A stretch of DNA of 38,415 bases from positions 1 to 38,415 of the IMG/VR virus record IMGVR_UViG_3300033141_002898, one strand, 5' to 3'. How positions within the stretch are numbered: position 1 is the stretch's first letter; the number at the start of each line of letters is the position of its first letter. The DNA is from a virus. Position numbers and translations under genes: made by a program. The notes beneath the pieces are model-generated. The model was not told where the DNA came from. It saw only the letters and a list, made by a program, of their open reading frames with translations, and did no database searches. Below are positions 1,537 to 37,952 of the stretch, piece after piece.

Positions 1537-1827
1537 ATGTTTACAGGAAAAAAGATAAATGTATTTCGCAGATTTATTGAGGATACAAGTACAGGTTATT
1601 GTACAGAAATTTATCCAGTCGATGTTGATATAATACAAACACATACTTTTATTCTTTCTAAAGATCCAAAATTAGATACATTAGTTATACATTTAAATGG
1701 TTTAAAGCAAGTGCGCCACTCTGATTGGGATTATACTATTAATAATCGAATTGTCTCTATTAATTCTAAATGGAAGTTATATATAGGTGATACTTATGTA
1801 GCTAGTTATTATGCTTTAAATACCTAA
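1537..1827 (+). CDS. Small beta-rich tail-appendage-like protein
   Basis: A 96-residue protein. Its second half has the pattern hydrophobic-LNG, then DYT, then a strand and a GD turn ending in a tyrosine. The same order is seen in the last ~50 residues of the tail fibre at 1944-3647 (LAVYLNG, DYTV, final DYRY). This points to a small beta-sandwich domain of the kind found at fibre tips or as free appendage proteins. It carries one TSTG tetrapeptide near residue 18. The ribosome site is poor, so expression may depend on coupling with the upstream gene. Confidence 0.6.
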   Translation: MFTGKKINVFRRFIEDTSTGYCTEIYPVDVDIIQTHTFILSKDPKLDTLVIHLNGLKQVRHSDWDYTINNRIVSINSKWKLYIGDTYVASYYALNT

Positions 1828-1943
1828 ATTCTTTTTTCTAACCCTAAAAGATAAAAACCATCTTTATTATTTATATTGAGAGAATAAGATAATATGAGAT
1901 ATATAATAGAAAAAAATATATTTTTTAATCTCTGGGGGTTTGT
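1828..1943 (+). other. Intergenic gap before the tail-fibre gene
   Basis: A 116-base, very A+T-rich non-coding gap, one of the longest in the window. It holds the ribosome site CTGGGGG (about 1932-1937) for the fibre gene and an A/T palindrome at 1911-1926. No convincing sigma70 -35/-10 pair and no GC-rich terminator was seen. It could still hold a phage-specific late promoter that cannot be recognised without the cognate sigma factor. Confidence 0.4.
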
Positions 1944-3647
1944 ATGAGTCGAACATGGATTAGAGGGAATACTCAGATAATGCCATGGTCTGTGACATTA
2001 GACAGAACATGGGGTTATGATGGGAATACATCAACTGGTTTTTTAACAACATCTACAGGTGCTGCTAAAGATTGGGATATGACTAATGGTGCGAAAGATG
2101 CTACCATTACAGGTTTACGTAATCCTACAGCGGATTCTGATGCAGCTACTAAAGTATATGTTGATAGTGTTGCACAAGGTTTGGATCCAAAGGAATCAGT
2201 GAGACTTGCGACTGTAGCAGCATTGCCGTCACATACACAGTCTGGTGCTGGTCAAGGGGCTACTCTTATAGGATCATCTACTGGTCAATTATATATTGAT
2301 GGAATAGCTGTTAATGTGGATGATAGGATTCTAGTTAAAAACGAGACATCTACTGGGGCTGCGGTTAACGAGAGTTCTGAAAATGGTATATATATTGTTA
2401 CCAGTACTGGAGCTAGTGGTGGTTGGGTATTAACTAGAGCAGAAGACTGGGATGGTTATACTTTACCAGGTGTTACAGAGCAGTTGTCCGGATCGTATAC
2501 ATGGATAGAGGAAGGTAATACGATTAGTGATACAGCGTGGGTTTGTATCACAGATGAACCGATTACTGTTGATACTACTGGAATCAAATGGACACAGTTT
2601 GGAGGAGCTGGTACATATACAGCTAGTTTAGGTGTTAAGAAAGTAGGTAATGATTTTCAAGCAGATCTATTGTCCACGGGTGCGATTGGTTTGTCTACTA
2701 ATAGTATGTATGTGCGTGTGGATAATACTACTATTGGTATTAATGGTAGTAATAATCTTTATGTAATAGCACCTCCTGCACATACTCATTCGTTAGCTAG
2801 TGGTGATATTACAGATGTAGATGTTACTGGTGCAACTGCAGGTGATATTTTAATAAGAAGTTCTGATGGTAATTGGTATGATCGTACAATGACTGGTGAT
2901 GTTCATATTACATCTACTGGTGTTACTGAGATTCAGGATGATGCTGTACAAGCATCTGATATTGACTGGGGTTTAGGTTCTGATCAGGTAAATGCTTCAG
3001 ATGTTCCTACGGATACTACTAATTTTGATACTATATTAAGTTCTGCTGATGATACTGTACAGAAGGCTTTGGATACATTAGATGATCATAATCATGGAAG
3101 TACATATACAAGTTATGCTTTCCGTACAATTATACCTAAAACTGGAAATAATGCTGTTGCAGATCAAATACATGATACATTGTATTTGAGAAGTACTACT
3201 GGTGTTGTTGAAATTAATGGTATAGATGATGATATTATTGATTTCGACGTTGCTGATTCTGCTATAACTGAAACGCATTTGAATACAAGTGTAGCTGGAA
3301 GTGCTCTTAGTGGTGGTGGTGGATCATCTTTGGATGTTCAGGTTGATGGTACTACTATTCATGTAAATGGCAGTAATCAACTTGAAGTTATTGGTACTAC
3401 CAGAGAAGTTATTGGTGAGTATGTTACTGTTACACATAATAGTCCAACTTGTGGTGCAGTTGCTAATATTCCTATAAAGAGTGGTACGTTGGCTGTTTAT
3501 TTAAATGGTGAACGTGTGCGAGAAGGTGCGTCGCATGATTATACTGTTAATTATACAACTGGTGTAATTACATTTAATTATAATTTAAAGGCACCATCTG
3601 GTCAGCCCGATCATTGGGATCAAGTTTGTGTAGATTATAGATATTAG
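1944..3647 (+). CDS. Tail fibre protein
   Basis: A 567-residue extended fibre. Residues 61-75 carry the PTADSDAATKVYVDS motif common to phage fibres. Residues ~105-170 have the repeat usual in phage fibres: an LYIDGIAV strand, DRILVKN, ENGIYIV and then WVLTRAEDWDG. Later segments repeat short strand motifs (GVKKVGNDFQADL, NNLYVIAPP, HTHSLASGDITDV), and the last ~50 residues form an LNG..DYTV tip domain. It contains seven Ser-Thr-Gly tripeptides. It probably trimerises and contacts the host surface; the receptor is unknown. It starts the fibre cluster, with a GGGGG ribosome site 6-7 bases upstream. Confidence 0.85.
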   Translation: MSRTWIRGNTQIMPWSVTLDRTWGYDGNTSTGFLTTSTGAAKDWDMTNGAKDATITGLRNPTADSDAATKVYVDSVAQGLDPKESVRLATVAALPSHTQSGAGQGATLIGSSTGQLYIDGIAVNVDDRILVKNETSTGAAVNESSENGIYIVTSTGASGGWVLTRAEDWDGYTLPGVTEQLSGSYTWIEEGNTISDTAWVCITDEPITVDTTGIKWTQFGGAGTYTASLGVKKVGNDFQADLLSTGAIGLSTNSMYVRVDNTTIGINGSNNLYVIAPPAHTHSLASGDITDVDVTGATAGDILIRSSDGNWYDRTMTGDVHITSTGVTEIQDDAVQASDIDWGLGSDQVNASDVPTDTTNFDTILSSADDTVQKALDTLDDHNHGSTYTSYAFRTIIPKTGNNAVADQIHDTLYLRSTTGVVEINGIDDDIIDFDVADSAITETHLNTSVAGSALSGGGGSSLDVQVDGTTIHVNGSNQLEVIGTTREVIGEYVTVTHNSPTCGAVANIPIKSGTLAVYLNGERVREGASHDYTVNYTTGVITFNYNLKAPSGQPDHWDQVCVDYRY

Positions 3648-3658
3648 GATTAATATTT

Positions 3659-4162
3659 ATGCCTAGAATACGTCTCCGTGGTGGAGATCAGTTAATGGAT
3701 GGTACTGTTGATTCTGCTGACATCAAAGATGGTGATGTCAGCAGAGTTGACTTAAATGTGAGTTCGACAGGGCGGGCTGTTGTACGTAAAGTATTACCAG
3801 GGAATGGTACTACTATAATTTATGATGGGGTGGATGCTGGAACTGGTGATGTTATAATTTCTTTAGATGAATTATATCATAGAGGATTGGATGAGTTAGT
3901 ACATGAAATATCAGAAAATTGTTATATAGAGATAAGTAGAGATGTATCACAGAGAATAAATAGTATTATTTATTATACTAGTACTGGAAAGACTACAAAG
4001 GTTAGGGAGTATATTTTTACTAGATCAAATAATCGTGTTAGTCAGGTTGTTACGAGTCAATATGATAGTAGTGGTATTCTTGCAGAAAAATATACAGAAA
4101 CTATTAATAGAGGATCTGATGGTAGAGTAATTTCTGTAGATTCTTCATTGATTCTCTATTAA
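3659..4162 (+). CDS. Fibre-associated structural protein
   Basis: A 167-residue protein. The N-terminal ~80 residues (DGTVDSADIKDGDVSR, then VRKVLPGNGTTI, then DAGTGDVIISL) match the short repeat units typical of phage fibre attachment regions. The C-terminal half is a series of beta strands rich in Tyr, Ser and Thr. It starts 11 bases after the large fibre gene and is probably a partner or adaptor of that fibre. Two STG tripeptides are present. The assignment to the fibre system is good; its exact place in the particle is inference. Confidence 0.7.
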   Translation: MPRIRLRGGDQLMDGTVDSADIKDGDVSRVDLNVSSTGRAVVRKVLPGNGTTIIYDGVDAGTGDVIISLDELYHRGLDELVHEISENCYIEISRDVSQRINSIIYYTSTGKTTKVREYIFTRSNNRVSQVVTSQYDSSGILAEKYTETINRGSDGRVISVDSSLILY

Positions 4163-4188
4163 TATTTTTTTGAAAGGAGCAGCAGATT

Positions 4189-4386
4189 ATGCCTAATTTT
4201 GATAAGACAGGACCTATGGGTAAAGGACCTCGTACCGGTCGAGGGCGGGGTGGTTGTGATGCAACAGATATGAAAAAATTTAAACAGATGGGTTTATTTA
4301 AGGGAACATCTAATAAAGAGCGTAATCGTCCGATGGATGGACGTGGTCGTGGAAGAGGACCTGGTTTGGGAATTGGTCGAAAGTAA
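4189..4386 (+). CDS. DUF5320-like small Gly/Arg-rich protein
   Basis: A 65-residue basic protein. The start MPNFDKTGPMGKGPRTGRGRG fits the DUF5320 signature (MP..D.TGPMG.GP.TGRG), a family of unknown function often found beside iron-sulfur or nitrogenase-accessory genes in anaerobes. The C-terminal third is Gly-Arg repeats. Only one Cys is present, so a metal site is not obvious. A GAAAGGAG ribosome site lies ~9 bases upstream. Its presence among fibre genes is unusual; nucleic-acid or sugar binding by the RG repeats is possible but unproven. Confidence 0.75.
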   Translation: MPNFDKTGPMGKGPRTGRGRGGCDATDMKKFKQMGLFKGTSNKERNRPMDGRGRGRGPGLGIGRK

Positions 4387-4396
4387 TTGATTTTTT

Positions 4397-5071
4397 ATGA
4401 TTTTTGTTGTTGCGGACATAGACAACGAAATAGGACTAGCTACTGTTACTAGTACTGGACAACCTCTTGGAACCAGTACAGGTGATTATACAGCATTGGA
4501 TGTTAATGTAGTTAGTCCTATTAATACACAGGTTACTGTGGATGCTGTTAGTATAAAAGATCCTGCTGAAGAGACTAAGCAGGTAACTACAACATCTACT
4601 GGTGAACGTATTGCTCTTGATGTTAATATAACAAATGATGGTTTTGATGTTTCTTTTGGAGATAAGATTCGGTATGATGAATTTACGAAAGATCAACCAT
4701 TAACTAATGGTTCTTATGTAACTGTTTATTCAACGACTTCTGGTAATCCTGGGAAAATATATACTTTAGAAATGGTTTTCAGAAATAATGATGTTGATAT
4801 CCAGATTTTGGTAGATGGGGAGGCTATGGTAGATGGTTTGAATATCAGAGATCTTGCAGATAATCATTATATAGATGCATCTCCTGGAGGTTTATTTCAA
4901 GGTACTGTGGCACAAGTGCCTCGTTTTGTGTATGTTCATGCCAATAGTAGGGGTATTATTTTTGAGCCACCTGCTGCTGGTATATTTAATGATCAAGTTG
5001 TTGTTAAGGCTAGAGCACATACTAATGGTAATAGAATGCGTAGAGGTTTAATTGTAAGGGCAATAGAATAA
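4397..5071 (+). CDS. Virion appendage protein with TALDV repeats
   Basis: A 224-residue protein. Two N-terminal repeats have the form TSTG-x-x-TALDVNV (residues ~25-40) and TSTGERIALDVNI (residues ~65-77). The same unit is found once in the fibre at 7139-9049 (TSTGEGHTALDV). The C-terminal ~130 residues look like a beta-sandwich with long strands (YTLEMVFRNNDVDIQILVDG, RFVYVHANSRG). It probably forms part of the tail-fibre or baseplate appendage. The start is an ATG with little ribosome site, 11 bases after the previous gene. Confidence 0.65.
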   Translation: MIFVVADIDNEIGLATVTSTGQPLGTSTGDYTALDVNVVSPINTQVTVDAVSIKDPAEETKQVTTTSTGERIALDVNITNDGFDVSFGDKIRYDEFTKDQPLTNGSYVTVYSTTSGNPGKIYTLEMVFRNNDVDIQILVDGEAMVDGLNIRDLADNHYIDASPGGLFQGTVAQVPRFVYVHANSRGIIFEPPAAGIFNDQVVVKARAHTNGNRMRRGLIVRAIE

Positions 5072-5088
5072 TATTTTAAGGGGGATTT

Positions 5089-5412
5089 ATGAGTAAAGAA
5101 ATTAAATACATGTCTATTAAAGAGTTTAGGGAAAAGGGATATTTGCAGGAATTAAATAGACGATTTTTGCATCCACTGGGACTTGCTTTAGAAATATCTA
5201 TACAGGATAATGGTAAAGAGGTACTAGGTGGAATTTGGGATTATCGTGATGATCCTGAGGGAATTTATTATGATTTAAAAAATTCGAATGAAAAGCGAAT
5301 AAAAAAATTTAGTGAAAGAGCTCAATTTATTGATAAGCAAATGGAAAAATATAGATCAGATAGGATCTTAAAATTAGGAGCGATAGTCGAGCCTATTCCA
5401 GATATTAGTTAG
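5089..5412 (+). CDS. Conserved phage protein (GIWDYRDDPEG family)
   Basis: A 107-residue protein with the features EKGYLQE-x-NR-x-FLHPLGLALE, then LGGIWDYRDDPEGI, then a charged helix. I recognise this as a recurring small phage protein family of unknown function, usually near virion genes. It has a good GGGGG ribosome site just upstream (5081-5086). No catalytic motif is evident; the Arg-Asp-Asp cluster is the most conserved-looking part. Being in the fibre operon suggests late expression. Confidence 0.65.
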   Translation: MSKEIKYMSIKEFREKGYLQELNRRFLHPLGLALEISIQDNGKEVLGGIWDYRDDPEGIYYDLKNSNEKRIKKFSERAQFIDKQMEKYRSDRILKLGAIVEPIPDIS

Positions 5413-5422
5413 GTAGGTTGTT

Positions 5423-6106
5423 TTGGGATTAGTTAATTCAGCACATTTAGTAGATATTGATTGGGATCAGTTACGTCCTTTATTAACTAGTACTGGTTTA
5501 TCTTATACATATATAGATAACTGGAATATAAACCGAAGGACTATACTGGCACGTAAAGATGCTGGTAGTTATTATGTGTGTAATATTCGTATTACAGATA
5601 CTAGTACTGGGTTTGTTGATCAGAAAGATTTTGATGATAATTTTGCTTCTTTTGCTAATTTGGAGGATTCTTTAGATTTTACAATACCTATTTCTGATTA
5701 TTGGATACATACTAGTATACCTATGATATATGAGCCGCCTTCTAATAAAACTGGTGTTGCTGAAGGAGGAGAGGTTCTGGTAGCGGCTAAGGGGGGTATT
5801 TTAAATTATTCATGGATAATACCTAACGGAGAAACTTTTTATTTAAGACAGTTAGAATTTGGTGCTATTCAAATACATCATAGTATTCATCCTCTGCAAG
5901 CTAAATGTATTTTGTATTATCGCCCAAATGGGACTGCTATAGGACAACAAATTCTTGCTCCTATATTTTTGCAAGGTGAAAGTCATAAATATGTACATTT
6001 TAATAAATCTTTTGTAGGAGATGGAGTTGCTACTATGTATTTACATGTAGTGAATTTATCGGAATTTGTTATTGATTGTTTTCGTATGTTTAGGGGATAT
6101 TATTGA
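5423..6106 (+). CDS. Tail appendage / structural protein
   Basis: A 227-residue protein starting with TTG, six bases after AGGTAGG at 5411. The N-terminal ~95 residues contain YYVCNIRITD followed by DFDDNF, a module shared with the proteins at 7139 and 9059. Residues ~100-227 are strongly beta (YSWIIPNGETFYLRQLEFGAI, KCILYYRPNG) and resemble a jelly-roll tip domain. Two TSTG tetrapeptides lie in the N-terminal part. The stop overlaps the next ATG (TGATG), so translation is coupled. It is probably a fibre or adhesin subunit. Confidence 0.65.
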   Translation: MGLVNSAHLVDIDWDQLRPLLTSTGLSYTYIDNWNINRRTILARKDAGSYYVCNIRITDTSTGFVDQKDFDDNFASFANLEDSLDFTIPISDYWIHTSIPMIYEPPSNKTGVAEGGEVLVAAKGGILNYSWIIPNGETFYLRQLEFGAIQIHHSIHPLQAKCILYYRPNGTAIGQQILAPIFLQGESHKYVHFNKSFVGDGVATMYLHVVNLSEFVIDCFRMFRGYY

Positions 6107-7131
6107 TGTATTTTTTAGGTATATCATCACTTGATTATCTCTTAAGATTTGCAGGGAAGCCTCCAACTGTTGATAATATTGCTGAGAAATACAAAGTATC
6201 TTCTGATTATATATATTCGATTGTTAAATATGATCCTAGTTTTGATTCTCATAGAGGTATTATCAAACCATTAGGTATGTGGTTATTGAAAAATGTTAAT
6301 AAAGGTTACTTATCTAATGATGATAGATCTTTGAGAAATGCTGTAGTTAATGTATTATTTTTGAATAAACAGATTGATAAAAAAGGTGTATTTGCGGAAA
6401 AAGCAAAAGATGATTTTGAATTGGTAGATTGGGTAGAAAAGCATTTTAAAGGTTGCTCTGCTAGACAGATTTCTATTGCTTTTGATTCTATTGCGGATCT
6501 TAATAAAGAATCATATTTGCGAATGGCTCCGGAAGAGATTTTTAATATAGTAAGGAAATTTAAGCCTGAAAATGTATCGTTAGATAAATATTATAAATAT
6601 AATGAAGATGCTGCGGATGATGTTAATGTTTTATATAATAAAGATGGTTGGTTGATTTTATTTCCTTTGACATCCGATGCTGCTGTGTATTTTGGTTCTG
6701 CTACAAAATGGTGTACATCAAATATGTCAAATTGTGGAAAATATTATGAAGAATATATGAGTAAAGGACCTTTATATATAATAATTGATAATAATTCTGG
6801 TCATAGATTTCAATTACATTATACAACTGGTAGTTTTATGAATGAATTAGATAGACCTGGAGCGATTTTATGGAAAAGTTTGGATGTACCTGATGAAGTA
6901 AATAATTTTTTGTATAATTTAACTGGATTAGGGATTTTTAATAAGGATTCTTCTTTATTAGAAAGTGAAAAGCAATTGTACAAATATATTATACTTAGTA
7001 ATACTTATCCGAATGTTTATGCTGATATATTGAAAGAAGAATATATAGAAGGATTAAAAAATGGTTATCTTACTATGGATGAATATTCTTATATCATGTC
7101 ACATTTAAGTCAAGATGAATCTGTAATGTAG
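6106..7131 (+). CDS. Conserved phage protein with WCT/GPLY domain
   Basis: A 341-residue protein. Residues ~175-250 carry a set of motifs I know from many tailed phages: LFPLTSDAAVYFG-x-ATKWCT (near 200), GPLYIIID (near 221), RFQLHY (near 233) and SFMNELD (near 245). The biochemical role is unknown; the conserved Trp-Cys-Thr and His look like an active or binding site. The first 21 residues (M-x-F-L-G-I-S-S-L-D) match the N-terminus of the small protein at 17964. ATG 6106 is preferred over the upstream TTG because it overlaps the preceding TGA and follows AGGGG. Confidence 0.75.
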   Translation: MYFLGISSLDYLLRFAGKPPTVDNIAEKYKVSSDYIYSIVKYDPSFDSHRGIIKPLGMWLLKNVNKGYLSNDDRSLRNAVVNVLFLNKQIDKKGVFAEKAKDDFELVDWVEKHFKGCSARQISIAFDSIADLNKESYLRMAPEEIFNIVRKFKPENVSLDKYYKYNEDAADDVNVLYNKDGWLILFPLTSDAAVYFGSATKWCTSNMSNCGKYYEEYMSKGPLYIIIDNNSGHRFQLHYTTGSFMNELDRPGAILWKSLDVPDEVNNFLYNLTGLGIFNKDSSLLESEKQLYKYIILSNTYPNVYADILKEEYIEGLKNGYLTMDEYSYIMSHLSQDESVM

Positions 7132-7138
7132 GTGAGAG

Positions 7139-9049
7139 ATGTATAATAAATGCTACACTAGTTGGGCAGATTTTAAATCTGCGATGATTTTGAAAGATGC
7201 TGTAGGTACTTTACAATATGAGGAGCTAGAGTTAGGTACCAGTACTGGGAGATATGCTCTTACGTTTTTTGATGATAATTTTGAAGGTTGCTATTTATTA
7301 TATCAATCTGATACTTCGGATGTTGAAGATTTTGAAAATAATTATAAAGCCAATGCTAATAGATCTGTTTCTAGAGATTATTTTAAAATTAGGTGTAGTA
7401 AAGATTATACTATTACATCTACATCTACTGGTGAAGGACATACTGCTCTTGATGTATTCATTCACGGCAAACTGGATGATGTATATCATAATGATCTTCC
7501 TGGTTTAAACGTTGGGGATTTTAGACATCTTACTGAGAATGAAAAGAATGGTTTAACTGGTGGGACATCTACTGGATTACATACACATAATCATAATATA
7601 TTGACTAATATCTTACCTGATCAGCATCATAATCAAGTTCATGCTATTGATGGATCTGATCATACTGGTACTTTAGATCATTCATCATTGAATGATGATG
7701 AGCCGGATAAACATAGAGTAATTAATGATGGTACTGTATCATCTACTGGTTTGTGGTCATCATCGAAAATACAGAATGAACTTAATGATAAATCTGATAT
7801 AGGACATACTCATGTAGAGACAGATATTACAGATCTTGATCATGATGCACAAAAGATAAAAGGTGTTGTTGTTGATGATACTAACATATCGGATGGTAAA
7901 ATCCTTAAATATGATAGTAGTACAGGTACTTTAGTTTATTCGGAGGATAACAGTGTAGGTGATCATGCTTTAAGTACACATACTGATGTTTCCTCAGAGT
8001 CTCCGGAGGATGGAGAAGTACTAACGTGGGAAAGTAGTACTGGACAATGGATTCCACAAAGTGTAGCGTTATCTGGTCTTGTTTTATCTTGTGTGCAAGC
8101 TAGACAATCAGGTATTATTTCTATTCAAGATTCTTGGACTGATATATTCTTAGATACTACTGATGTAGAGACTAGAGCTTCTGTGATAGAACACGATGAT
8201 ATTAATACAGATAGAATTCTTATAAAAGAAGATGGCTATTATCAAATAACATATTGTGTTTCTATAAACTCACCTAGTAGTAGTGATACTAGTGATATAA
8301 GTGGAAGATTACGTAAGAATGATACGGTTGTATTGAATGGTTCTGAAAGTGCTACATCAACATATAATGGATCTGGCCCACGCTTAGAGGATAGTTTAGC
8401 ACAGACTATAATTACTTTTTTGAATGAGAATGATTTTATAACATTACAACTTAAAAAAGCATGTCCAATTACGTATACATTATATGGTCCTGTAGTAACT
8501 GTCATTAAATTAGATGGGATTAAAGGAGAAAAAGGAGATACTGGTAGTGGTATAGATGCAGAATATATACAAGGAACTTTTGTTGATGATACGAATAAGT
8601 CTGATGGAAAGGTATTAGGATATAATGCAACTTCTGGTAATATTGAATATTTGTCTCAAAGTGGTGCTAATGGATCTACTTGGCTTTTACATGGATGTGT
8701 TCGAAATGTTGGTAAGTATGCATCTATATTTATGAGTTTTGGTAGGGCTGGTGTTAATGCTGGTGTCGTCATGATTGATGATGGTGAAATTATTGGACTT
8801 AGTATTAGTATGTCTCAGAATCGTGTTGGAGGAACATGTAAGCTTCAGATTGCTATTAATGGAGTTTGGCAGACAAATCCAGATTATATTGTAATTATTG
8901 ATGGAAATAATCCTAAAACAAACTTTAAAAAATTCAGTGTTCCCTTACAATTTAATGCTGGGGATGTTATTCATATGCGGACTGTAACGCATAATTTTAG
9001 TAATACTAGTAATGATGCTACTGGTGGATGTTTTATACAAAATAGGTGA
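7139..9049 (+). CDS. Tail fibre / receptor-binding protein with C1q-like and collagen-like parts
   Basis: A 636-residue multidomain fibre. Residues 1-120 contain DFENNY and TSTGEGHTALDV modules shared with neighbouring genes. Residues ~130-310 form a shaft with His-rich repeats (HTHNHN, HTGTLDHSSL, ETDITDLDHD) and units such as LTWESSTGQWIPQ. Residues ~313-455 resemble a C1q/TNF-like jelly roll (SWTDIFLDTT, ILIKEDGYYQITYCVSI). Residues 460-471 are a short collagen-like Gly-x-y run (GIKGEKGDTGSG). The C-terminal ~140 residues form another beta domain, probably the receptor-binding tip. AGGTGAG provides the ribosome site. It has six STG tripeptides. Confidence 0.85.
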   Translation: MYNKCYTSWADFKSAMILKDAVGTLQYEELELGTSTGRYALTFFDDNFEGCYLLYQSDTSDVEDFENNYKANANRSVSRDYFKIRCSKDYTITSTSTGEGHTALDVFIHGKLDDVYHNDLPGLNVGDFRHLTENEKNGLTGGTSTGLHTHNHNILTNILPDQHHNQVHAIDGSDHTGTLDHSSLNDDEPDKHRVINDGTVSSTGLWSSSKIQNELNDKSDIGHTHVETDITDLDHDAQKIKGVVVDDTNISDGKILKYDSSTGTLVYSEDNSVGDHALSTHTDVSSESPEDGEVLTWESSTGQWIPQSVALSGLVLSCVQARQSGIISIQDSWTDIFLDTTDVETRASVIEHDDINTDRILIKEDGYYQITYCVSINSPSSSDTSDISGRLRKNDTVVLNGSESATSTYNGSGPRLEDSLAQTIITFLNENDFITLQLKKACPITYTLYGPVVTVIKLDGIKGEKGDTGSGIDAEYIQGTFVDDTNKSDGKVLGYNATSGNIEYLSQSGANGSTWLLHGCVRNVGKYASIFMSFGRAGVNAGVVMIDDGEIIGLSISMSQNRVGGTCKLQIAINGVWQTNPDYIVIIDGNNPKTNFKKFSVPLQFNAGDVIHMRTVTHNFSNTSNDATGGCFIQNR

Positions 9050-9058
9050 TTGTAAAAG

Positions 9059-10039
9059 ATGCCATATGTAAAGATTAATAAAGCTACTCATATAGTTGAG
9101 GATGTATATTCAGAATCGGAGCAGCTTTCTTCAGAAGATACTTCCTTTGAGATACAAAGTGATTTCGTTTTTGATCCTATTGTAGATATTTCTATTTGGA
9201 AATATCTACAAGCAAGTACAGGATATACTTTTGTTTTTAGAGGATATAGAGATTTCTATGCACATGCGGAGTATAATGAGTTATCTTACGAGGATTTTAT
9301 AACAAAGTGTGAAAGTCAGCATTTACCTATACAATATAAAGTGTTAACTGATGATGTAGATGATGTAGATAGAGCATATTATTTATATACATATGATGGT
9401 AATGAAAAATATTTTTGTAATATTAACATGATAGATTCTTCTACCGGGGTACTTGATTTTGATGAAAATTATATTCTTACTGGTAAGGCTAATCAGCCGC
9501 TTGCTCCGCGAGAGTTTTCAACAGGTATTATTAAATTTAAACCTAGGCCAGTTGAGGGTAAACTTTTTGTAAATCATTTGTATTTTACAACAGGTTTATC
9601 TGAATGTGATGCTGGTATTTATACTCATTATTGGACTATTACAACATCTACAGGATTTCCAGATATAGATAATACTGTTTTTTCTTCTGAAACATCAACA
9701 GGTATCACAATTGCTAGCTTTATTCCAGATTTTGATTATTACATTGATGGAGGGTATTGTTGTTTAAATTTATCGGATATTGTTACAACTACTGGTACTT
9801 TAATTCTACAGATGTATTTAGCACCTGCTATTCCCAGAGAATATGGTGGAAGTGTTATGTTTGTGGGTAATAAACGGTTTAAGCGGTGGAATGGCGGTAT
9901 TTACAAGTTTGAATTGGTAACATCTCCGGCATTTGTAAGATATTATCCAGGAGTACCTTCTAATGAAATTAGGATAACTGTTTTACATGATGTTATAGAG
10001 AGGGTTGAGCTAGAGATAGGCTTACGGTTATATTTATAA
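9059..10039 (+). CDS. Tail appendage structural protein
   Basis: A 326-residue beta-rich protein. Near residue 120 it has YFCNINMID-SSTG-VLDFDENY, the same module as in the genes at 5423 and 7139, so the three are partial paralogues. Five STG tripeptides occur, two of them 14 residues apart. The C-terminal third (YGGSVMFVGNKRFKRWNGGIYKF) looks like a globular beta domain. It lies directly after the C1q-like fibre with only nine bases between and no clear ribosome site, so it is likely coupled. It is probably a baseplate-proximal fibre or cap; the precise function is unknown. Confidence 0.65.
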   Translation: MPYVKINKATHIVEDVYSESEQLSSEDTSFEIQSDFVFDPIVDISIWKYLQASTGYTFVFRGYRDFYAHAEYNELSYEDFITKCESQHLPIQYKVLTDDVDDVDRAYYLYTYDGNEKYFCNINMIDSSTGVLDFDENYILTGKANQPLAPREFSTGIIKFKPRPVEGKLFVNHLYFTTGLSECDAGIYTHYWTITTSTGFPDIDNTVFSSETSTGITIASFIPDFDYYIDGGYCCLNLSDIVTTTGTLILQMYLAPAIPREYGGSVMFVGNKRFKRWNGGIYKFELVTSPAFVRYYPGVPSNEIRITVLHDVIERVELEIGLRLYL

Positions 10040-10063
10040 TTTTTTTCAAAGGAGCGGATAGGT

Positions 10064-10424
10064 ATGTCTACTGAGATTTGGATGGCGTTGATTGGGTTGC
10101 TTGTATTATTTTAAGCGAAGAATGGATAAAGAAGTTGTAGCTAGTAATAATGCTTTGCTTGATGCAATTAAATCTATGGATAAAGGTTTAATGAATATTA
10201 TGTCTAATCAATCAGAATTATTACGTAGTGTTAAAGATACGGTTGAATGGACAAAAGATATTCATAATAAATTTGATACGGATGGAGCACCTATATGGTA
10301 TGTTCCTAGATCTTGGTCAGAGACACAGAAAGAGATTGTGGAAATGTTAAGAGAAATTTCTAATAAATTACAAAGATTAGATGATATTTTATCTAGATTA
10401 GATAGACGTTTGAATAACAAATGA
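10064..10424 (+). CDS. Membrane-anchored coiled-coil protein, needs +1 frameshift
   Basis: ATG 10064 has a good ribosome site (AAAGGAG, 10048-10054) and encodes MSTEIWMALIGLLVLF, a single hydrophobic helix, then stops at TAA 10112-10114. The +1 frame continues directly with KRRMDKEVVASNN and a ~100-residue charged helix ending in a coiled coil (LREISNKLQRLDDILSRLDRRL). Joined, they make a sensible 119-residue protein: helix, positive stop-transfer, cytoplasmic coiled coil. The junction TTT TAA G lets tRNA-Phe re-pair with UUU after slipping one base. Alternatives are a sequencing or homopolymer error, a real inactivating mutation, or separate translation from ATG 10122. The stop overlaps the STAS gene's ATG. 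Confidence 0.6.
10109..10114 (+). promoter_or_regulatory. Candidate +1 frameshift site (TTT T-AA)
   Basis: Zero-frame Phe codon TTT at 10109-10111 is followed by stop TAA at 10112-10114. A one-base forward slip re-pairs tRNA-Phe with TTT at 10110-10112, and the next codon is AAG (Lys). A slippery P-site codon with a stop in the A site is the layout of the prfB +1 site (CTT TGA). No close upstream stimulatory Shine-Dalgarno is evident, which counts against high efficiency. Confidence 0.4.
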
Positions 10425-10726
10425 GAGTGGATACAGAGATAAAAGAAAATAAGTTAATTTTGCGAATCTCTGAAGATATGTCTATTAAAGACTTTAGAGA
10501 TTTGAAAATATCTATATATAATATTCTTGATGATAATGATATAGATGTTGTATTAGATATATCAGACTTAACATATATAGGTTCTTATGGGATTGGTGTA
10601 ATTATTACTATACAAAAATTACAGGAAAAACGTAATAAAAGTTTTGAAGTTATAGCTAATAATAAAATAAAGTTAGCATTAGATCTTGTGGATTTGTCTT
10701 CTGTGGTTAAAATTGTTCAAAAATGA
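10421..10726 (+). CDS. STAS-domain protein (anti-anti-sigma factor-like)
   Basis: A 101-residue single STAS domain. It has the expected order: N-terminal strands, VVLDISDLTYIGSYGIGVII at ~43-62, a helix, then FEVIANNKIKLALDLVDLSSVVKIV. In SpoIIAA/RsbV antagonists the loop is D-S-(S/T)-G-(L/I)-G with the first Ser phosphorylated by an anti-sigma kinase. Here it is G54-S55-Y56-G-I-G, so the Ser is kept, the preceding Asp is lost and a Tyr follows. It could bind a host anti-sigma/switch kinase or a phage partner. Start ATG overlaps the previous stop (ATGA), and its own stop overlaps the next ATG. The fold call is strong; the target is inference. Confidence 0.85.
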   Translation: MRVDTEIKENKLILRISEDMSIKDFRDLKISIYNILDDNDIDVVLDISDLTYIGSYGIGVIITIQKLQEKRNKSFEVIANNKIKLALDLVDLSSVVKIVQK

Positions 10727-11268
10727 ATAATGGTGATTTAATGATCGATAATAAATTTATAAAATATTCTAATATACTTCGTGAGGCTGATATAATTGTT
10801 GTATATAATAGACGTAGCTGGTTGCATCGATTAATTTATGGTGTGACTGGGTATAAGGCTGGGCATGTTCTTATTTATCTTTTTTCTGATTTAATAGCAG
10901 AAGCACAGATAAACGGTGTACGTGTTAAAAATTTAAAAAAATACAAAAAAACTAAGTATGATTTATATATTTTTCGATATAAAATGGTTGACGTTGATAA
11001 GTCATCTGCTATTATTGCATCCTCTTTAAAGTGTTGTGGGGAACGGTATGCTGTGTTACAATTAATTGCTATTCTTTTTAAATATCTTTTTCGATTAAAA
11101 AAGATAAAAGATGTTTCTAGAAAAGCAATGATATGTTCTGAATTTGTAGCTAGGGCATATAAAGATGCTGGTGTGTCTTTGTTTCCTAATAAGAATACGG
11201 CGGAAGTTGTTCCGTCGGATTTTATTCACAATGCTTTATTAGATAATGTGTTTATGCATAAAAGTTAA
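10723..11268 (+). CDS. Permuted NlpC/P60 (YiiX-like) cysteine hydrolase
   Basis: A 181-residue protein with the circularly permuted papain-like order in which His precedes Cys: AGHVLIYL with His48, a nearby acid Glu60 in IAEA, and the nucleophile Cys138 in MICSEFVARAY, followed by VVPSDF. This matches YiiX/YebB-type proteins, a group that includes amidases, peptidases and lipid acyl-hydrolases; the substrate is unknown. A hydrophobic patch (~110-125) may contact membrane. No signal peptide is present, so it probably acts inside the cell or in the virion. ATG 10723 overlaps the STAS stop; ATG 10741 is an alternative start. Confidence 0.8.
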   Translation: MNNGDLMIDNKFIKYSNILREADIIVVYNRRSWLHRLIYGVTGYKAGHVLIYLFSDLIAEAQINGVRVKNLKKYKKTKYDLYIFRYKMVDVDKSSAIIASSLKCCGERYAVLQLIAILFKYLFRLKKIKDVSRKAMICSEFVARAYKDAGVSLFPNKNTAEVVPSDFIHNALLDNVFMHKS

Positions 11269-11284
11269 AAAATAGGTGGTAATA

Positions 11285-11473
11285 ATGGCAGATAGATATT
11301 ATATTATTAGTGAAAAGTTAGCAAATGCTATATTAAATTATTTAGTGAACAAACCATTTATTGAAGTAGCTCATATTGTTCAAGGTTTACAGGGATTATC
11401 TCCTTTACCTATGGATATGCAAAAACAATTATTTTTGGATGTAAAAGATCAGAAATCTCAAAGTAATAAGTAA
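11285..11473 (+). CDS. Small conserved phage protein
   Basis: A 62-residue protein. ATG 11285 is chosen because AGGTGG at 11274-11279 lies five bases upstream; the longer GTG-initiated form would start inside the ribosome site. The core (ISEKLANAILNYLVNKPFIEV, then QGLQGL) resembles a small helical protein seen in many tailed phages near virion genes. Two helices are predicted, with no catalytic motif. Function is unknown. Confidence 0.65.
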   Translation: MADRYYIISEKLANAILNYLVNKPFIEVAHIVQGLQGLSPLPMDMQKQLFLDVKDQKSQSNK

Positions 11474-11474
11474 T

Positions 11475-12179
11475 GTGAGAGTAGTTGCAATAATACAAGC
11501 TAGGAGTAATTCCAAGCGATTACCTGGTAAGATTTTTAAACCTCTTGGTGGAAAACCTTTATTATATCATGTTATACAGTCTGTACGAGGAGATTTTGAG
11601 ACTGTAGTAGCTATTTCTACATATGAAAAAAATGCTCCGTCTATTTTAGATATTTGTACAGATTGTCATTGTTCTTTGATTGCTGTATCTTGTTTGGAAG
11701 ATGATGTATTATATAGATATTACAGAACAGCGTCTTTATTAAAAAGTGATTTTATAATAAGAATAACTGCTGATAATCCATTCATTTCTTCTTTTTTTGT
11801 TAAAAAAGCAATACAATATGCTTTAAAACTGGATACAGATTTTTTTCATTTTGAAGGTTTACCTATAGGAGTAGGAGTAGGTGTGATTAAATTCTCTGCT
11901 TTAGAGAGATGCTACTATGAAGCTTGTAGTTCATATGATAGGGAGCATGTTACGACTTATATGTTGAATAATCCGGATGAATTTAATATAGGTGTGTGTT
12001 ATATTAAATATAAATATCCTATATCGCATATTAGATTAACAGTAGATTATGAGGAGGATTATAGAAAAGCTTTTTATATTTATGATAATTTATATAAGGA
12101 GAAAGTTCTTTCTTTAAAAGAAATTCTCAGATTTATTGAGAATGATGTTAAATATAAAGAAAAATTTTGTATTATTTAA
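11475..12179 (+). CDS. SpsF-type cytidylyltransferase (acylneuraminate CTP transferase-like)
   Basis: A 234-residue nucleotidyltransferase. The N-terminus VVAIIQARSNSKRLPGKIF is the CTP-binding loop of the SpsF/NeuA/KdsB superfamily (RS-x-S-x-RLPGK at residues 10-19). RITADNPF (~95-102) is the metal-binding region, where the usual family form is RITGDCPL. DREHVTTYM (~155-163) is typical of the SpsF branch. The full length is present. It would activate an acidic or amino sugar as a CMP conjugate, although SpsF proteins' substrates are mostly unproven. It starts with GTG one base after the previous stop. A glycosyltransferase-like gene lies at the far end of the window. Confidence 0.85.
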   Translation: MRVVAIIQARSNSKRLPGKIFKPLGGKPLLYHVIQSVRGDFETVVAISTYEKNAPSILDICTDCHCSLIAVSCLEDDVLYRYYRTASLLKSDFIIRITADNPFISSFFVKKAIQYALKLDTDFFHFEGLPIGVGVGVIKFSALERCYYEACSSYDREHVTTYMLNNPDEFNIGVCYIKYKYPISHIRLTVDYEEDYRKAFYIYDNLYKEKVLSLKEILRFIENDVKYKEKFCII

Positions 12180-12234
12180 GAATAACTGGAATTTCTTATA
12201 TGTAATATTTTAAAAAAATTGGTGGTGCTTAGTT

Positions 12235-12933
12235 ATGTTAATAAATATAGATACTAGATCTTTTTGGAAATATGCTGAATCATTGCAAGAAGATATATCT
12301 TTAGAAGATATATTTGCTTCGTGGATATCTATGAAAGATGTATCTATTCGAGAGGCAACTGCTTTATGGTTTGGTATTAATTCGGAAATACAAAATATAT
12401 ATCAATTTACACAAAGAATTGCTGATTATCAAAGTAATGGTTTAGCTCGCTTTACTGTGTCTGAAGAACATGATGGTGCGTATATTGAAATATATAGTGC
12501 TTATATTAGCATATCAGAACTCAGGCATAGTTTAGTTGTGACGGTTATAAGAAGTGTAATAGATCCTGAATTTGAAAAAAGAGTAAACAGAGCGATAACA
12601 CAATATTTAGAATATACTGTTTTTGCTCCTGAACAGCTTGAGAAAAAAATAGTAGAAGAAGATATTATAGATAAATTACAAATTGCTTTGGATAGTGATG
12701 ATTTTGTTGTGCTTATTGGTACATTGTTTGCAAAGATATGTGATCCTAAAATACAGTCAATACAATTGTATGCGGAACTTAAAGATAGAGCTTATGGCGG
12801 TAAAGTGATTGCTACTGGGATTGAAATATTACATAGGAAGAGTGAGTTTGATCCTTTTATTAAGTATGATACTGTAATAGATCGTAATCAACGAAATGAT
12901 CAAAATAGTTTTGAAGAAATAGGTTTCAAATAA
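12235..12933 (+). CDS. Hypothetical protein with N-terminal SFW module
   Basis: A 232-residue protein. From Ser9 it carries SFWKYAESLQ..SLEDIFASW, aligning without gaps to the C-terminus of the protein at 26 and the N-terminus of that at 13823. The rest is mixed: strands around 75-110 (ARFTVSEEHDGAYIEIYSAY) and long helices around 125-170. No known fold was recognised. Ribosome site GGTGGTG lies a few bases upstream. It is convergent with the minus-strand gene, with a 12-base gap and no visible terminator. Confidence 0.7.
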   Translation: MLINIDTRSFWKYAESLQEDISLEDIFASWISMKDVSIREATALWFGINSEIQNIYQFTQRIADYQSNGLARFTVSEEHDGAYIEIYSAYISISELRHSLVVTVIRSVIDPEFEKRVNRAITQYLEYTVFAPEQLEKKIVEEDIIDKLQIALDSDDFVVLIGTLFAKICDPKIQSIQLYAELKDRAYGGKVIATGIEILHRKSEFDPFIKYDTVIDRNQRNDQNSFEEIGFK

Positions 12934-12945
12934 AAGATCGAAGTT

Positions 12946-13677
12946 TTATGATAATGATATTATTTTATGTTTCATGATAGTTCTGTTTTGAAATTGTGTA
13001 AGTATTTCATATATATGTTCATTTTGTATTTCGATATTTGATCCGTCTTTTATTAGAGTAGTTATTTTGTTTCTTTTTTTTGAATTCACTTCTTCTTTTG
13101 ATGCCTGTCCTATGATTTTTATGAATGTTCTATTACTTAATCCATTTCTTATGAATTCATAACATAGATCTTGTATATTCGTAATTAATATACGTTTGAT
13201 TTTTTTCTCAACGAGTGCCATGATTGTAATGATAATACTTTCATTGTTTACTACTTCTCTTGTGTACATAAAATATCTGCTGTAAGCTAAATGGGGATAT
13301 TTTATCATATGAGGTAGGGTTTTTTTGTCGTATACTGTATTATGTATTGCTTCTTTTTTTAGTTGAACGAATTTTTTAGTACGTTTTATAGCGTTTTCTT
13401 TGGGAAAGGGTTGCCATTTTTCAATATATGTTCCGGTTAATTCTTCTGCTTGTGTGGGAGATAGTAAGTATGGATCATATTGGAGTACCAGATCATATAA
13501 CCATATAGGATCCCATTCTGGTGGAGATTCTATACCCCACTCGTTTATTGAATTGTAGAAACGAGTAATTGCAAAACGAACCATATCAAATACTTGAAGA
13601 TCTCCTAGTTTAGTTTTGAATATCTTGGTGTTTTCAATATACTTGTCTTGAAATGATAAAATGTTATTTTTTCTCAT
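12946..13677 (-). CDS. Lone minus-strand gene, unknown function
   Basis: A 243-residue protein and the only convincing minus-strand gene here. Its reality is supported by AGGAGG five bases before ATG (complement of 13683-13688) and a sigma70-like promoter just upstream. The sequence is basic and helical, with aromatic-rich segments (RYFMYTREVV, EWDPIWLYDLVLQYDPY) and a Lys/Arg-rich stretch near 195-205. I do not recognise the family. Orientation and a private host-type promoter resemble a moron or an early host-takeover gene placed in the late region. It is fully convergent with the gene ending at 12933. Confidence 0.75.
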   Translation of the reverse strand: MRKNNILSFQDKYIENTKIFKTKLGDLQVFDMVRFAITRFYNSINEWGIESPPEWDPIWLYDLVLQYDPYLLSPTQAEELTGTYIEKWQPFPKENAIKRTKKFVQLKKEAIHNTVYDKKTLPHMIKYPHLAYSRYFMYTREVVNNESIIITIMALVEKKIKRILITNIQDLCYEFIRNGLSNRTFIKIIGQASKEEVNSKKRNKITTLIKDGSNIEIQNEHIYEILTQFQNRTIMKHKIISLS

Positions 13678-20072: not shown

Positions 20073-21464
20073 ATGGCTGGTTTGGGATATAGATTACCTG
20101 GTACAACTATTGAAGAAGTTACACAGCCTACGACTGTTAATGTATCTTCATCGCAGAGGATACCATGTTTTATAGGTATTGCAAGTGATTATATTAGGGT
20201 AAATTATGAGCGTGTTGTTAGAAGTTCAACTGGTTTGGTTGATGATTTAGCGTATACATCCAATGGTATTTATCAGGTAATTCAAGTAGGATCGCAAAGA
20301 GGATTAAACGATTATATAGAAGGTGTTCATTTTAATCTTACAAATGATCAAATTGTGTGGACATCAAGTGGTATTGTAACTCCAGGAGCTACTTATTTTG
20401 TATCGTATAAATATAATAGATTGTATGATCCAAATAATTTGACTAATCCTGAGTTGAATGATTATAGGTATAAAGAATTTACCAACTTTGAAGATGTGGT
20501 TGCGGATCTTGGAGAAGATATTCCTGATCATCCATTGGTTATGGTATGTAAAATAGCTCTTACTTTTTTCAATGTTCCTAGAGTAGCTACGGTTCAGATT
20601 AAGTCTGAAACTACTACTAATTATGCTAATGCGCTTGATTTGATTAAATATAGAGATATACAAACAGTAGTACCTTTGACGACTAGTGCTGCTGTGCGTA
20701 CTGCAACAATAGCACATGTTACTGAAAGAAGTTTACCCGATAATGGTAGATATAGAATGATGTGGGCAGGTGCTGAGGCAGGTACTCCTGTAGGAAGTGA
20801 AAGTGATCCTACATCCTTGAGGGGTATAGCTGCTAATATTAAGAATGAGCGTTGTGTCTTTGTAAATGCAACAAGAGCTAGGTATTATTATAATGATCCT
20901 GACACAGGAGAGGAGTTATCTACTACAGTAGATGGTTCTTTTATTGCTGCGGTTTTGGCAGCATATCGTGATTCTTTTGTATATCCAGCAACTACATTGT
21001 TAGGAAAGACTGTTCCTGGGATTGAGCTTTTTGATGAAGATTTTGATGACTATTATTCAGAGGAACAATTAACGTTGTGTGGTGGTAGTAGCTTGTTTAT
21101 AGTACAGTCTGTAGCAGGTGTAATGAAAGTTGTAGATGATTTAACTACAGATAATTCTACAGTCGAACGTAATAACATTAATATAATCACAGCGAAGGAT
21201 TATATTGCTAGAGATGTTGCTATTCAGATGGATAGAACATTTAAAGGTAGATTGATATTAGATTCAGGCGCGTATACGAATACTATTCGTAGTTATTTAG
21301 CTACTATGTTTGCTACTTATAGGAGAGCATCTATTATTGAGAGTGTGAAAACTATAACTGCTACTATTTCTCCATTGCGGAGAGATACTGTGGATATTTA
21401 TTATGGTTATACTGCCATTTATACACATAAATATACTGATGGTACTTATTCATTAGTAACTTAA
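20073..21464 (+). CDS. Tail sheath protein
   Basis: A 463-residue contractile sheath subunit. The N-terminus LPGTTIEEVTQPTTVNVSSSQRIPCFIGIA is typical of sheath domain I, and the variable insertion carries a single STG. The C-terminal half has LFIVQSVAGVMKVVDDLTTD, then INIITAKDYIARDVAIQMDRTFKGRLI and a final strand exchanged between subunits in known sheaths. It is shorter than T4 gp18 but within the usual range. TTAGGAGC is the ribosome site. It polymerises around the tube and contracts to drive penetration. Confidence 0.92.
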   Translation: MAGLGYRLPGTTIEEVTQPTTVNVSSSQRIPCFIGIASDYIRVNYERVVRSSTGLVDDLAYTSNGIYQVIQVGSQRGLNDYIEGVHFNLTNDQIVWTSSGIVTPGATYFVSYKYNRLYDPNNLTNPELNDYRYKEFTNFEDVVADLGEDIPDHPLVMVCKIALTFFNVPRVATVQIKSETTTNYANALDLIKYRDIQTVVPLTTSAAVRTATIAHVTERSLPDNGRYRMMWAGAEAGTPVGSESDPTSLRGIAANIKNERCVFVNATRARYYYNDPDTGEELSTTVDGSFIAAVLAAYRDSFVYPATTLLGKTVPGIELFDEDFDDYYSEEQLTLCGGSSLFIVQSVAGVMKVVDDLTTDNSTVERNNINIITAKDYIARDVAIQMDRTFKGRLILDSGAYTNTIRSYLATMFATYRRASIIESVKTITATISPLRRDTVDIYYGYTAIYTHKYTDGTYSLVT

Positions 21465-36491: not shown

Positions 36492-37952
36492 ATGATTACC
36501 AAAACTAAAGATGATATTCGTACTGATATTCTGGATACATATGACGAGGTATTACCCAATCTCGATTTAACTTCAGGTACTCCAGAGAGGGATATTTTTG
36601 TAGAGGCCCCTCTTGCTGGTCAACTAGAGCAGTTGTGGGAGAAGCTTATATATGTAGCTAAGTTACATGCTCCTATTAACTATGTTGATGATTTGGAAAC
36701 AGATGACATTACGGCTTATATGGGTAATTATAATATTGTACCTTTTCCTCCTACTTATTCTACTGGAAATGTTGTTTTTTATACAAATTCTATTCCTACA
36801 GAAGATATTGTGATAACAGATGGTACTATTGTGCGTACACGGGATGCATCTCCGATAGAGTTTGAAGTGCAGGGTAGTTATACTATGTATGCTGATTTAG
36901 CGTCGTCTTATTATAATGCAGAGAAGCAGCGTTGGGAGATTTCATGTGATATTAAGGCATTGAATCCTGGTCCTGATTTTAGAGCTGGGGCATCTACTAT
37001 TGTAGAGATGGCTAATTCTATTACAGGTATTGATGGTGTTGAGAATTATGATGCTGTTACAGGAGGTACTGCTGGAGAAGAGATAGAAAGTGCGGTTGAG
37101 CGTGTAGTGGAAGTATTTCAAGGTAGAGGGCTTGCTACTACGGCTGCTTTGAGTAGATACGTGAAGGCGTATGTAGAGGCTGTTAATGTAGTAAGTGCTA
37201 ATGATCCTGAAATGAAGCGAGATGAGGGTCTTGGTGGAATGATTGATTTTTATGTTATTGGAGAGGATATTACAACTGCAAATGATATTGTAGATATAAC
37301 ATCGACTGGTTTACAATCTGATGTGAATGTTAACTATTCGTCTACGGGTATTGTTATGGAACACCAACCAGTTCGGGAAATATTAGCACTGATAATTAAT
37401 GGTGATCTTGTTTCTCCTACTTACTATACACTCCAGAAGGATGAAGGTATTCTAGCTGGCTCTACACAAGCATTTGATAAAGTTGTAATAACAAGCACAG
37501 GAACTTCAACTGGGTTTAGCTTTTCACCTGGAGATACAGTTGAAATTAATTATACATATAATGCTTTGTTACAAACAATAGAAGATGGTTTAAATATACC
37601 AGAAAATCATTACATAAACAGAGATTATTTACTTAGAGAGATGGATAAGGTTACTGTTGATGTGTATATGGCATTTAAGGAGAATGATGGACAGGATTGG
37701 ACACTTATTGCAAACTCGGTAGAGACAGAATTGTCAGCATTTATTAATGCTGTTAAGAATAACGGTAGTATAGAATTGGCTGATTTTATAGCAGATGCGA
37801 AAAGTGTAGCAGGTGTTGATAATATAGACTTGACAACTGTATCGCTTACAAATATAAATGGTGGTACAAAGACGGAACAAGGTGATATTTTATTTGGCAA
37901 GAATGAATATCCGGTTGCGGGAACAATAACGCTAGAACGGTGGACAAATTGA
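36492..37952 (+). CDS. Baseplate J-like wedge protein (gp6/GpJ)
   Basis: A 486-residue protein. The start TPERDIFVEAPLAGQLEQLWEKL and the middle EFEVQGSY, then TAGEEIESAVERVVEVFQGRGLAT fit the baseplate J domain. The end (VTVDVYMAFKENDGQ, then DIDLT-type strands) is its C-terminal part. Five STG tripeptides occur, two adjacent in TSTGTSTG. It follows gp25-like directly, as in T4-like and P2-like wedges, and its TGA overlaps the next TTG. Confidence 0.85.
   Translation: MITKTKDDIRTDILDTYDEVLPNLDLTSGTPERDIFVEAPLAGQLEQLWEKLIYVAKLHAPINYVDDLETDDITAYMGNYNIVPFPPTYSTGNVVFYTNSIPTEDIVITDGTIVRTRDASPIEFEVQGSYTMYADLASSYYNAEKQRWEISCDIKALNPGPDFRAGASTIVEMANSITGIDGVENYDAVTGGTAGEEIESAVERVVEVFQGRGLATTAALSRYVKAYVEAVNVVSANDPEMKRDEGLGGMIDFYVIGEDITTANDIVDITSTGLQSDVNVNYSSTGIVMEHQPVREILALIINGDLVSPTYYTLQKDEGILAGSTQAFDKVVITSTGTSTGFSFSPGDTVEINYTYNALLQTIEDGLNIPENHYINRDYLLREMDKVTVDVYMAFKENDGQDWTLIANSVETELSAFINAVKNNGSIELADFIADAKSVAGVDNIDLTTVSLTNINGGTKTEQGDILFGKNEYPVAGTITLERWTN

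Follow-up and report, generated by a model that had tools for sequence, protein, structure and literature searches.

An operon of coil, STAS and YiiX-like genes in a poorly known myophage combines known parts in a new way

We analysed the whole of virus record IMGVR_UViG_3300033141_002898 (38,415 bases), referred to here as the window, whose source is a poorly known contractile-tailed phage (myophage). It carries fibre-like genes (7139-10039), a sheath gene (20073-21464) whose top match among named phages is in Virus Rctr197k, with 28% identity, and a baseplate wedge gene (36492-37952). Between the fibre-like genes and the sheath block lies a block of three genes encoding a coil protein, a STAS protein and a YiiX-like enzyme. 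The nearest relative, and the single closer contig found, is the 64-kb contig IMGVR_UViG_3300032053_014324 (G001; sheath identity 72%), in which window positions 14620-37952 are retained in the same order and different genes occupy the place corresponding to the trio, the variability of this region being judged against this one near relative. The GC content is 28.5% in 10040-13677 as compared to 33-34% on both flanks. A cytidylyltransferase gene of KdsB/PseF type (11475..12179, plus strand; Pfam CTP_transf_3 at 2e-27, with matches to KDO/pseudaminate cytidylyltransferase models) shares this AT-rich accessory stretch with the trio, and both the base composition and the presence of a sugar cytidylyltransferase suit an accessory region. 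Relatives of the cytidylyltransferase are scattered across phyla, and the phage host cannot be named from them; a single phage relative, a weak one, was found in an uncultured marine virus.

The three genes overlap by four nucleotides (ATGA) at 10421-10424 (coil/STAS) and at 10723-10726 (STAS/enzyme), as an earlier note on this DNA had described. By themselves, such overlaps are ordinary. The Shine-Dalgarno duplex energy is -2.2 kcal/mol at the STAS start (rank 34 of 38 starts) and -3.5 kcal/mol at the enzyme start (rank 31 of 38), as compared to a window median of -6.2 kcal/mol. The only strong ribosome-binding site ahead of the coil, STAS and enzyme genes is AAAGGAG at 10048..10054 on the plus strand (-12.0 kcal/mol, rank 2 of 38). 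Since the STAS and enzyme starts lack a good Shine-Dalgarno sequence, translation of the block probably relies on coupling from 10064. The overlaps and the missing ribosome-binding sites support, at the level of sequence, co-translation of the coil, STAS and enzyme genes, and in this form the co-expression suggested in the earlier note is backed.

We found that the block is a real operon whose first gene needs to be corrected. The frame opened at 10064 closes after 16 codons, with a stop at 10112-10114, and this ORF, MSTEIWMALIGLLVLF* (10064..10114, plus strand), either encodes a leader peptide or forms the 5' portion of the coil gene. Its stop codon lies on a T4 run, within UUU-UAA-G (10109..10115, plus strand), which may be a +1 shift site, an indel or an assembly error. 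After a +1 slip at UUU-UAA (UUU to UUU), tRNA-Phe would again be fully paired and reading would continue in the coil frame; given this placement of the stop, the slip would join the 10064 frame to the coil frame in a product reading ...GLLVLF-KRRMDKEV.... The coil ORF itself (frame +1, plus strand) runs from ATG 10122, or TTG 10092, to 10424 and encodes a soluble helical coil. The ATG at 10122 stands 7 nt after the UAA stop, and its Shine-Dalgarno is nearly absent (-1.8 kcal/mol). The coil ORF is possibly reached by reinitiation 7 nt past the stop or by +1 frameshifting, or the break may reflect an indel, real or introduced in assembly. The viral collection yielded no other copy of the UUU-UAA site by which to choose between these readings.

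The membrane coiled coil that had been read from 10064 is therefore not borne out as described, because of the frame break and because hydropathy revealed no transmembrane segment in the open coil frame (best 19-residue value 0.41). Hydrophobic residues number only about 12 in the shifted fusion (19-residue mean 0.93), which leaves a membrane anchor unproven in either form. An N-terminal transmembrane segment plus coil of the BhlA/UviB type is absent in the open frame, and the coil protein has no holin family match. Profile matches in the coil region (JetA, WXG100, COG6, SesA and others) fell below their cut-offs, were of the kind typical of coils and were set aside.

The third gene (10723..11268, plus strand) encodes a 181-aa YaeF/YiiX-like permuted NlpC/P60 enzyme (C92, phrog_1128). 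The protein matches the phrog_1128 profile at 2.5e-16 and the YaeF model at 3.6e-11, while PF05708 reaches 22.7 bits against a cut-off of 27. An AF2 model built from 12 sequences (pLDDT 80) matches B. cereus 3KW0 with a Z score of 17.4 and E. coli YiiX (2IF6) with 16.1, as compared to about 8 for human PLAAT/HRASLS phospholipase-acyltransferases and at most 3.5 for canonical cell-wall NlpC/P60 domains. The YiiX-like identity first proposed from the letters thus holds in both the profile matches and the predicted structure. Its catalytic residues come in the permuted order His-Glu ... Tyr ... Cys, and none of the four is missing: H48, E60, Y109 and C138, which match the family's His/Glu/Tyr/Cys set (residue roles from PMC3142127), do not vary across our 10-sequence and 12-sequence alignments. 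Cys138, the residue that the earlier note proposed to replace, lines up with the catalytic Cys of every relative aligned. With E. coli YiiX and B. cereus BcPPNE (3KW0), the enzyme shares the fold over 146-159 residues, the His-before-Cys permutation and the Tyr signature, whereas it is phage-borne and only about 20% identical to them.

In YiiX, the hydrophobic S1 pocket is occupied by a fatty acid, and a peptidoglycan substrate has been argued against (PMC3142127). Tox-Act1, another permuted NlpC/P60 enzyme, is a phospholipase (PMC12994826), and LnsA participates in lipoprotein N-acylation (PMC7387801). By analogy with these relatives, the phage enzyme probably acts on lipids, although fold likeness by itself does not prove the substrate. 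Hydropathy gave no strong transmembrane segment in the enzyme (best 19-residue mean 1.31), so an envelope substrate would be reached via lysis, the virion or the cytoplasmic face.

Large phages and prophages repeatedly carry YiiX-like genes. In PHROGs v4, phrog_1128 is filed under moron/host takeover and carries the label 'enoyl-CoA hydratase/carnithine racemase-like', a name also used in phage records such as NC_022088.2 and NC_071050.1. Contrary to the label, the members that we examined are YaeF/YiiX-type permuted papain-like enzymes, and those aligned here share the four catalytic residues of the window enzyme at about 19-28% identity. The window enzyme is a divergent new member of this known and widespread phage family. 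Even if the operon itself proves to be ordinary, its analysis corrects the annotation from enoyl-CoA hydratase-like to permuted papain-like.

The middle gene (10421..10726, plus strand) encodes a 101-aa STAS-only protein that is SpoIIAA/RsbV-like by Pfam, PDB sequence match and NCBIfam. Pfam PF01740 matches at 1.2e-7 (31.8 bits, cut-off 22.6), and SpoIIAA structures match over the whole length at 2.5e-6 in a PDB sequence search, which upholds the STAS domain proposed for the trio. The NCBIfam anti-sigma antagonist model gives 3.5e-11, below its curated cut-off, and the spore II AA equivalog TIGR02886 gives 32.6 bits, under its cut-off of 114.75. The single-sequence structure prediction was poor (pLDDT 54), and a fold search with it returned no meaningful match, so the STAS assignment rests on sequence. 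Like the SpoIIAA/RsbV antagonists, the phage protein is a stand-alone STAS domain of about 100 aa with a serine at the phosphoacceptor position: Ser55 aligns with SpoIIAA Ser58, the position at which 1TID carries a mutation to Ala (PMC13373217). It differs from them in that Gly54 replaces the Asp normally preceding this serine, in having an enzyme as operon partner and in having no anti-sigma kinase alongside. A PF13581 search of the window and of G001 yielded no GHKL anti-sigma kinase; both genomes are incomplete, and the host might supply such a kinase.

These features bear on whether the STAS protein mimics a host anti-anti-sigma factor and would free a host sigma factor late in infection, with the enzyme as an incidental neighbour. 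Its best matches are SpoIIAA and RsbV-type proteins, Ser55 occupies the phosphoacceptor position, and STAS proteins are widespread among Bacillota, being encoded in 38 of 41 genomes. However, the similarity to SpoIIAA is weak, Gly stands before the serine in place of Asp, and no GHKL kinase is encoded nearby. Sigma-factor mimicry would also leave the translational coupling to the enzyme unexplained, and we consider it very unlikely. A different precedent is VapS-VapC, in which a STAS protein controls a neighbouring enzyme (PMC13373217); here, too, the STAS gene adjoins a putative enzyme partner, although the phage enzyme belongs to an unrelated class and the phage block has no kinase gene.

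We compared the gene context of the enzyme's relatives in Bacillus, Geobacillus, Exiguobacterium and cyanobacterial phages and in prophages. A search with Troll gp102 reached 82 phage records, mostly from Bacillus phages, while a narrower alignment of the window enzyme retrieved Geobacillus phage E3 only. In Herelleviridae (Troll, BSP14, Moonbeam), the YiiX-like gene is flanked by minor tail/fibre genes and baseplate genes; it lies between the distal tail protein and the tail endopeptidase in PJN02, and shortly past the tape measure in phage 136. In Exiguobacterium phage 132 and Geobacillus phage E3, it is directly upstream of the holin and endolysin. In prophages of Pseudomonadota, DUF4376 (L134, L135) or tail protein X (L138) precedes it, and next comes a CHAP enzyme, a sheath gene, or a holin and muramidase. 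In Microcystis phage MaeS, it comes after fibre genes and before a gene for a transmembrane coil protein. It stands among tRNA and metabolic genes in Streptomyces phage GiJojo, and no clear tail neighbours are annotated around gp212 of phage G. These contexts indicate that the junction of fibre, lysis and baseplate genes is the usual address of such genes. The enzyme, which the earlier note had seen as foreign to a late structural cluster, is therefore in common company there, with relatives adjoining tail-fibre, baseplate, sheath and lysis genes. The phage genes of phrog_1128 (Troll gp102, BSP14, Thrax4-5 gp52b, Izhevsk, PJN02) combine the same enzyme type with a late position near fibre and tail genes, and YiiX-like enzymes have already been named as tail-module genes (PMC9703825, PMC7685451).

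The main rival to the reading that we prefer, an accessory late operon, arises from this context. The enzyme might be a virion component of the tail or baseplate that alters the host envelope at entry, the coil and STAS proteins being unrelated neighbours or assembly helpers. The gene order fits a virion-borne role equally well, since fibre and baseplate genes are such regular neighbours of the relatives: those in Troll, BSP14, Moonbeam, PJN02 and 136 lie inside the adsorption module, and a papain-like amidase occurs in the tail module of Thrax4-5, where such enzymes have been assigned to wall degradation at entry (PMC9703825). On the other hand, further relatives adjoin holin and endolysin genes or, in GiJojo, tRNA and metabolic genes, that of phage G is without clear tail neighbours, and the fold of the window enzyme is distant from canonical cell-wall NlpC/P60 domains. 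Our search of the literature found no virion proteome evidence for any YiiX homologue and no report of a tested role for phage YiiX-like genes. The virion bands identified in Tsamsa are the tape measure and gp199, 206, 207 and 222 (PMC3903500), and its YiiX homologue may or may not be among these numbers. Taken together, we judge a virion role to be somewhat unlikely.

The neighbouring holin genes raise a further alternative, an extended lysis cassette in which a holin-like transmembrane coil, produced via the +1 shift, and the enzyme would break the membrane while STAS sets the timing. In addition to the holin and endolysin neighbours in 132, E3 and the prophages L134 and L138, a transmembrane coil gene follows the YiiX-like gene in MaeS. 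The gene after the trio (11285..11473, plus strand), which has its own ribosome-binding site, encodes a 62-aa protein whose sole match is a weak relative in phage ctpbd312 that sits between the tail spike and the holin/endolysin region, just before a coil-transmembrane protein, a holin-like frame and an endolysin. However, this match is short (58.6% over 29 aa, E 6e-3), a PHROGs search recognised no endolysin in the window, and the window coil has neither a holin family match nor a transmembrane segment in its open frame, with only the dozen or so hydrophobic residues noted above in the fused form. A lysis cassette is thus improbable in our view. The MaeS coil gene (L011:5501-5833), directly downstream of the YiiX-like gene, matches phrog_1625 (bacteriocin production or immunity) at 2e-19.

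The trio does not form a conserved module, as STAS is missing beside the other YiiX-like genes searched. STAS was absent from 32 YiiX-bearing phage records (10 from GenBank and 22 from IMG/VR, with E3 in both sets and some being fragments), the window serving as positive control for the GenBank set; Thrax and Izhevsk were compared from papers. A STAS model built here, which recovers the window protein at 7e-8, found none at 76 chromosomal YiiX loci (flanks of at most 1.5 kb) and none in the phage loci. The STAS and coil proteins had no match at E 1 among 50,697 phage records, close relatives of the coil, STAS and enzyme were not found in viral contigs, and PADLOC left the trio unmatched. The earlier note had named non-adjacent homologues as grounds against its reading of the cassette, and this is what we observed, homologues being nowhere adjacent in the 32 records and 76 loci. 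Within the searches made, the pairing of STAS with a YiiX-like enzyme is new, with one genome as its only instance. In MaeS, the 130-aa gene that precedes the enzyme gene was considered as a STAS counterpart and rejected, having no match to the window STAS.

Our best explanation, held tentatively and at slightly less than an even chance, is an accessory (moron-like) late operon in which a YiiX-type enzyme acts on acylated envelope substrates together with a STAS partner. This accessory late operon builds on the gene structure, protein families, fold, active site and relatives' context described above. The operon's insertion point would lie downstream of the tail-fibre genes and ahead of the sheath/baseplate block. 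Ribosomes loaded at the strong site before 10064 would be passed on by coupling to the ORFs for coil, STAS and enzyme, so that the three proteins would be produced together; we infer that this happens late in infection. The Cys/His/Glu enzyme with its Tyr would most likely attack an acyl-amide or acyl-ester bond in a lipoprotein, lipopeptide or phospholipid, a substrate class suggested by likeness to the known or proposed actions of its structural relatives. The STAS protein, small and intracellular, would most likely work by binding another protein, which could be the adjacent enzyme or else an anti-sigma or STAS-binding protein of the host. A more specific proposal is a YiiX-type lipid or lipoprotein hydrolase under STAS control, with synthesis gated by +1 frameshifting or reinitiation at UUU-UAA and STAS restraining or releasing the enzyme; the same gating might possibly also govern membrane attachment. 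We give this elaboration very little credence. If STAS is indeed coupled to the enzyme, the operon would be a rare case of a phage employing the anti-sigma-antagonist fold and would offer a handle on the targets of YiiX-like enzymes and on how they are restrained.

Two compositional features of the window were also observed. The tripeptide Ser-Thr-Gly is strongly over-represented, with 35 occurrences in 11,816 residues as compared to about 4 expected, mainly in the fibre-like and baseplate proteins (window 1537-10039 and 36492-37952) and in G001 proteins as well. The octamer TCTACTGG occurs in 10 copies on the plus strand and in none on the minus strand.
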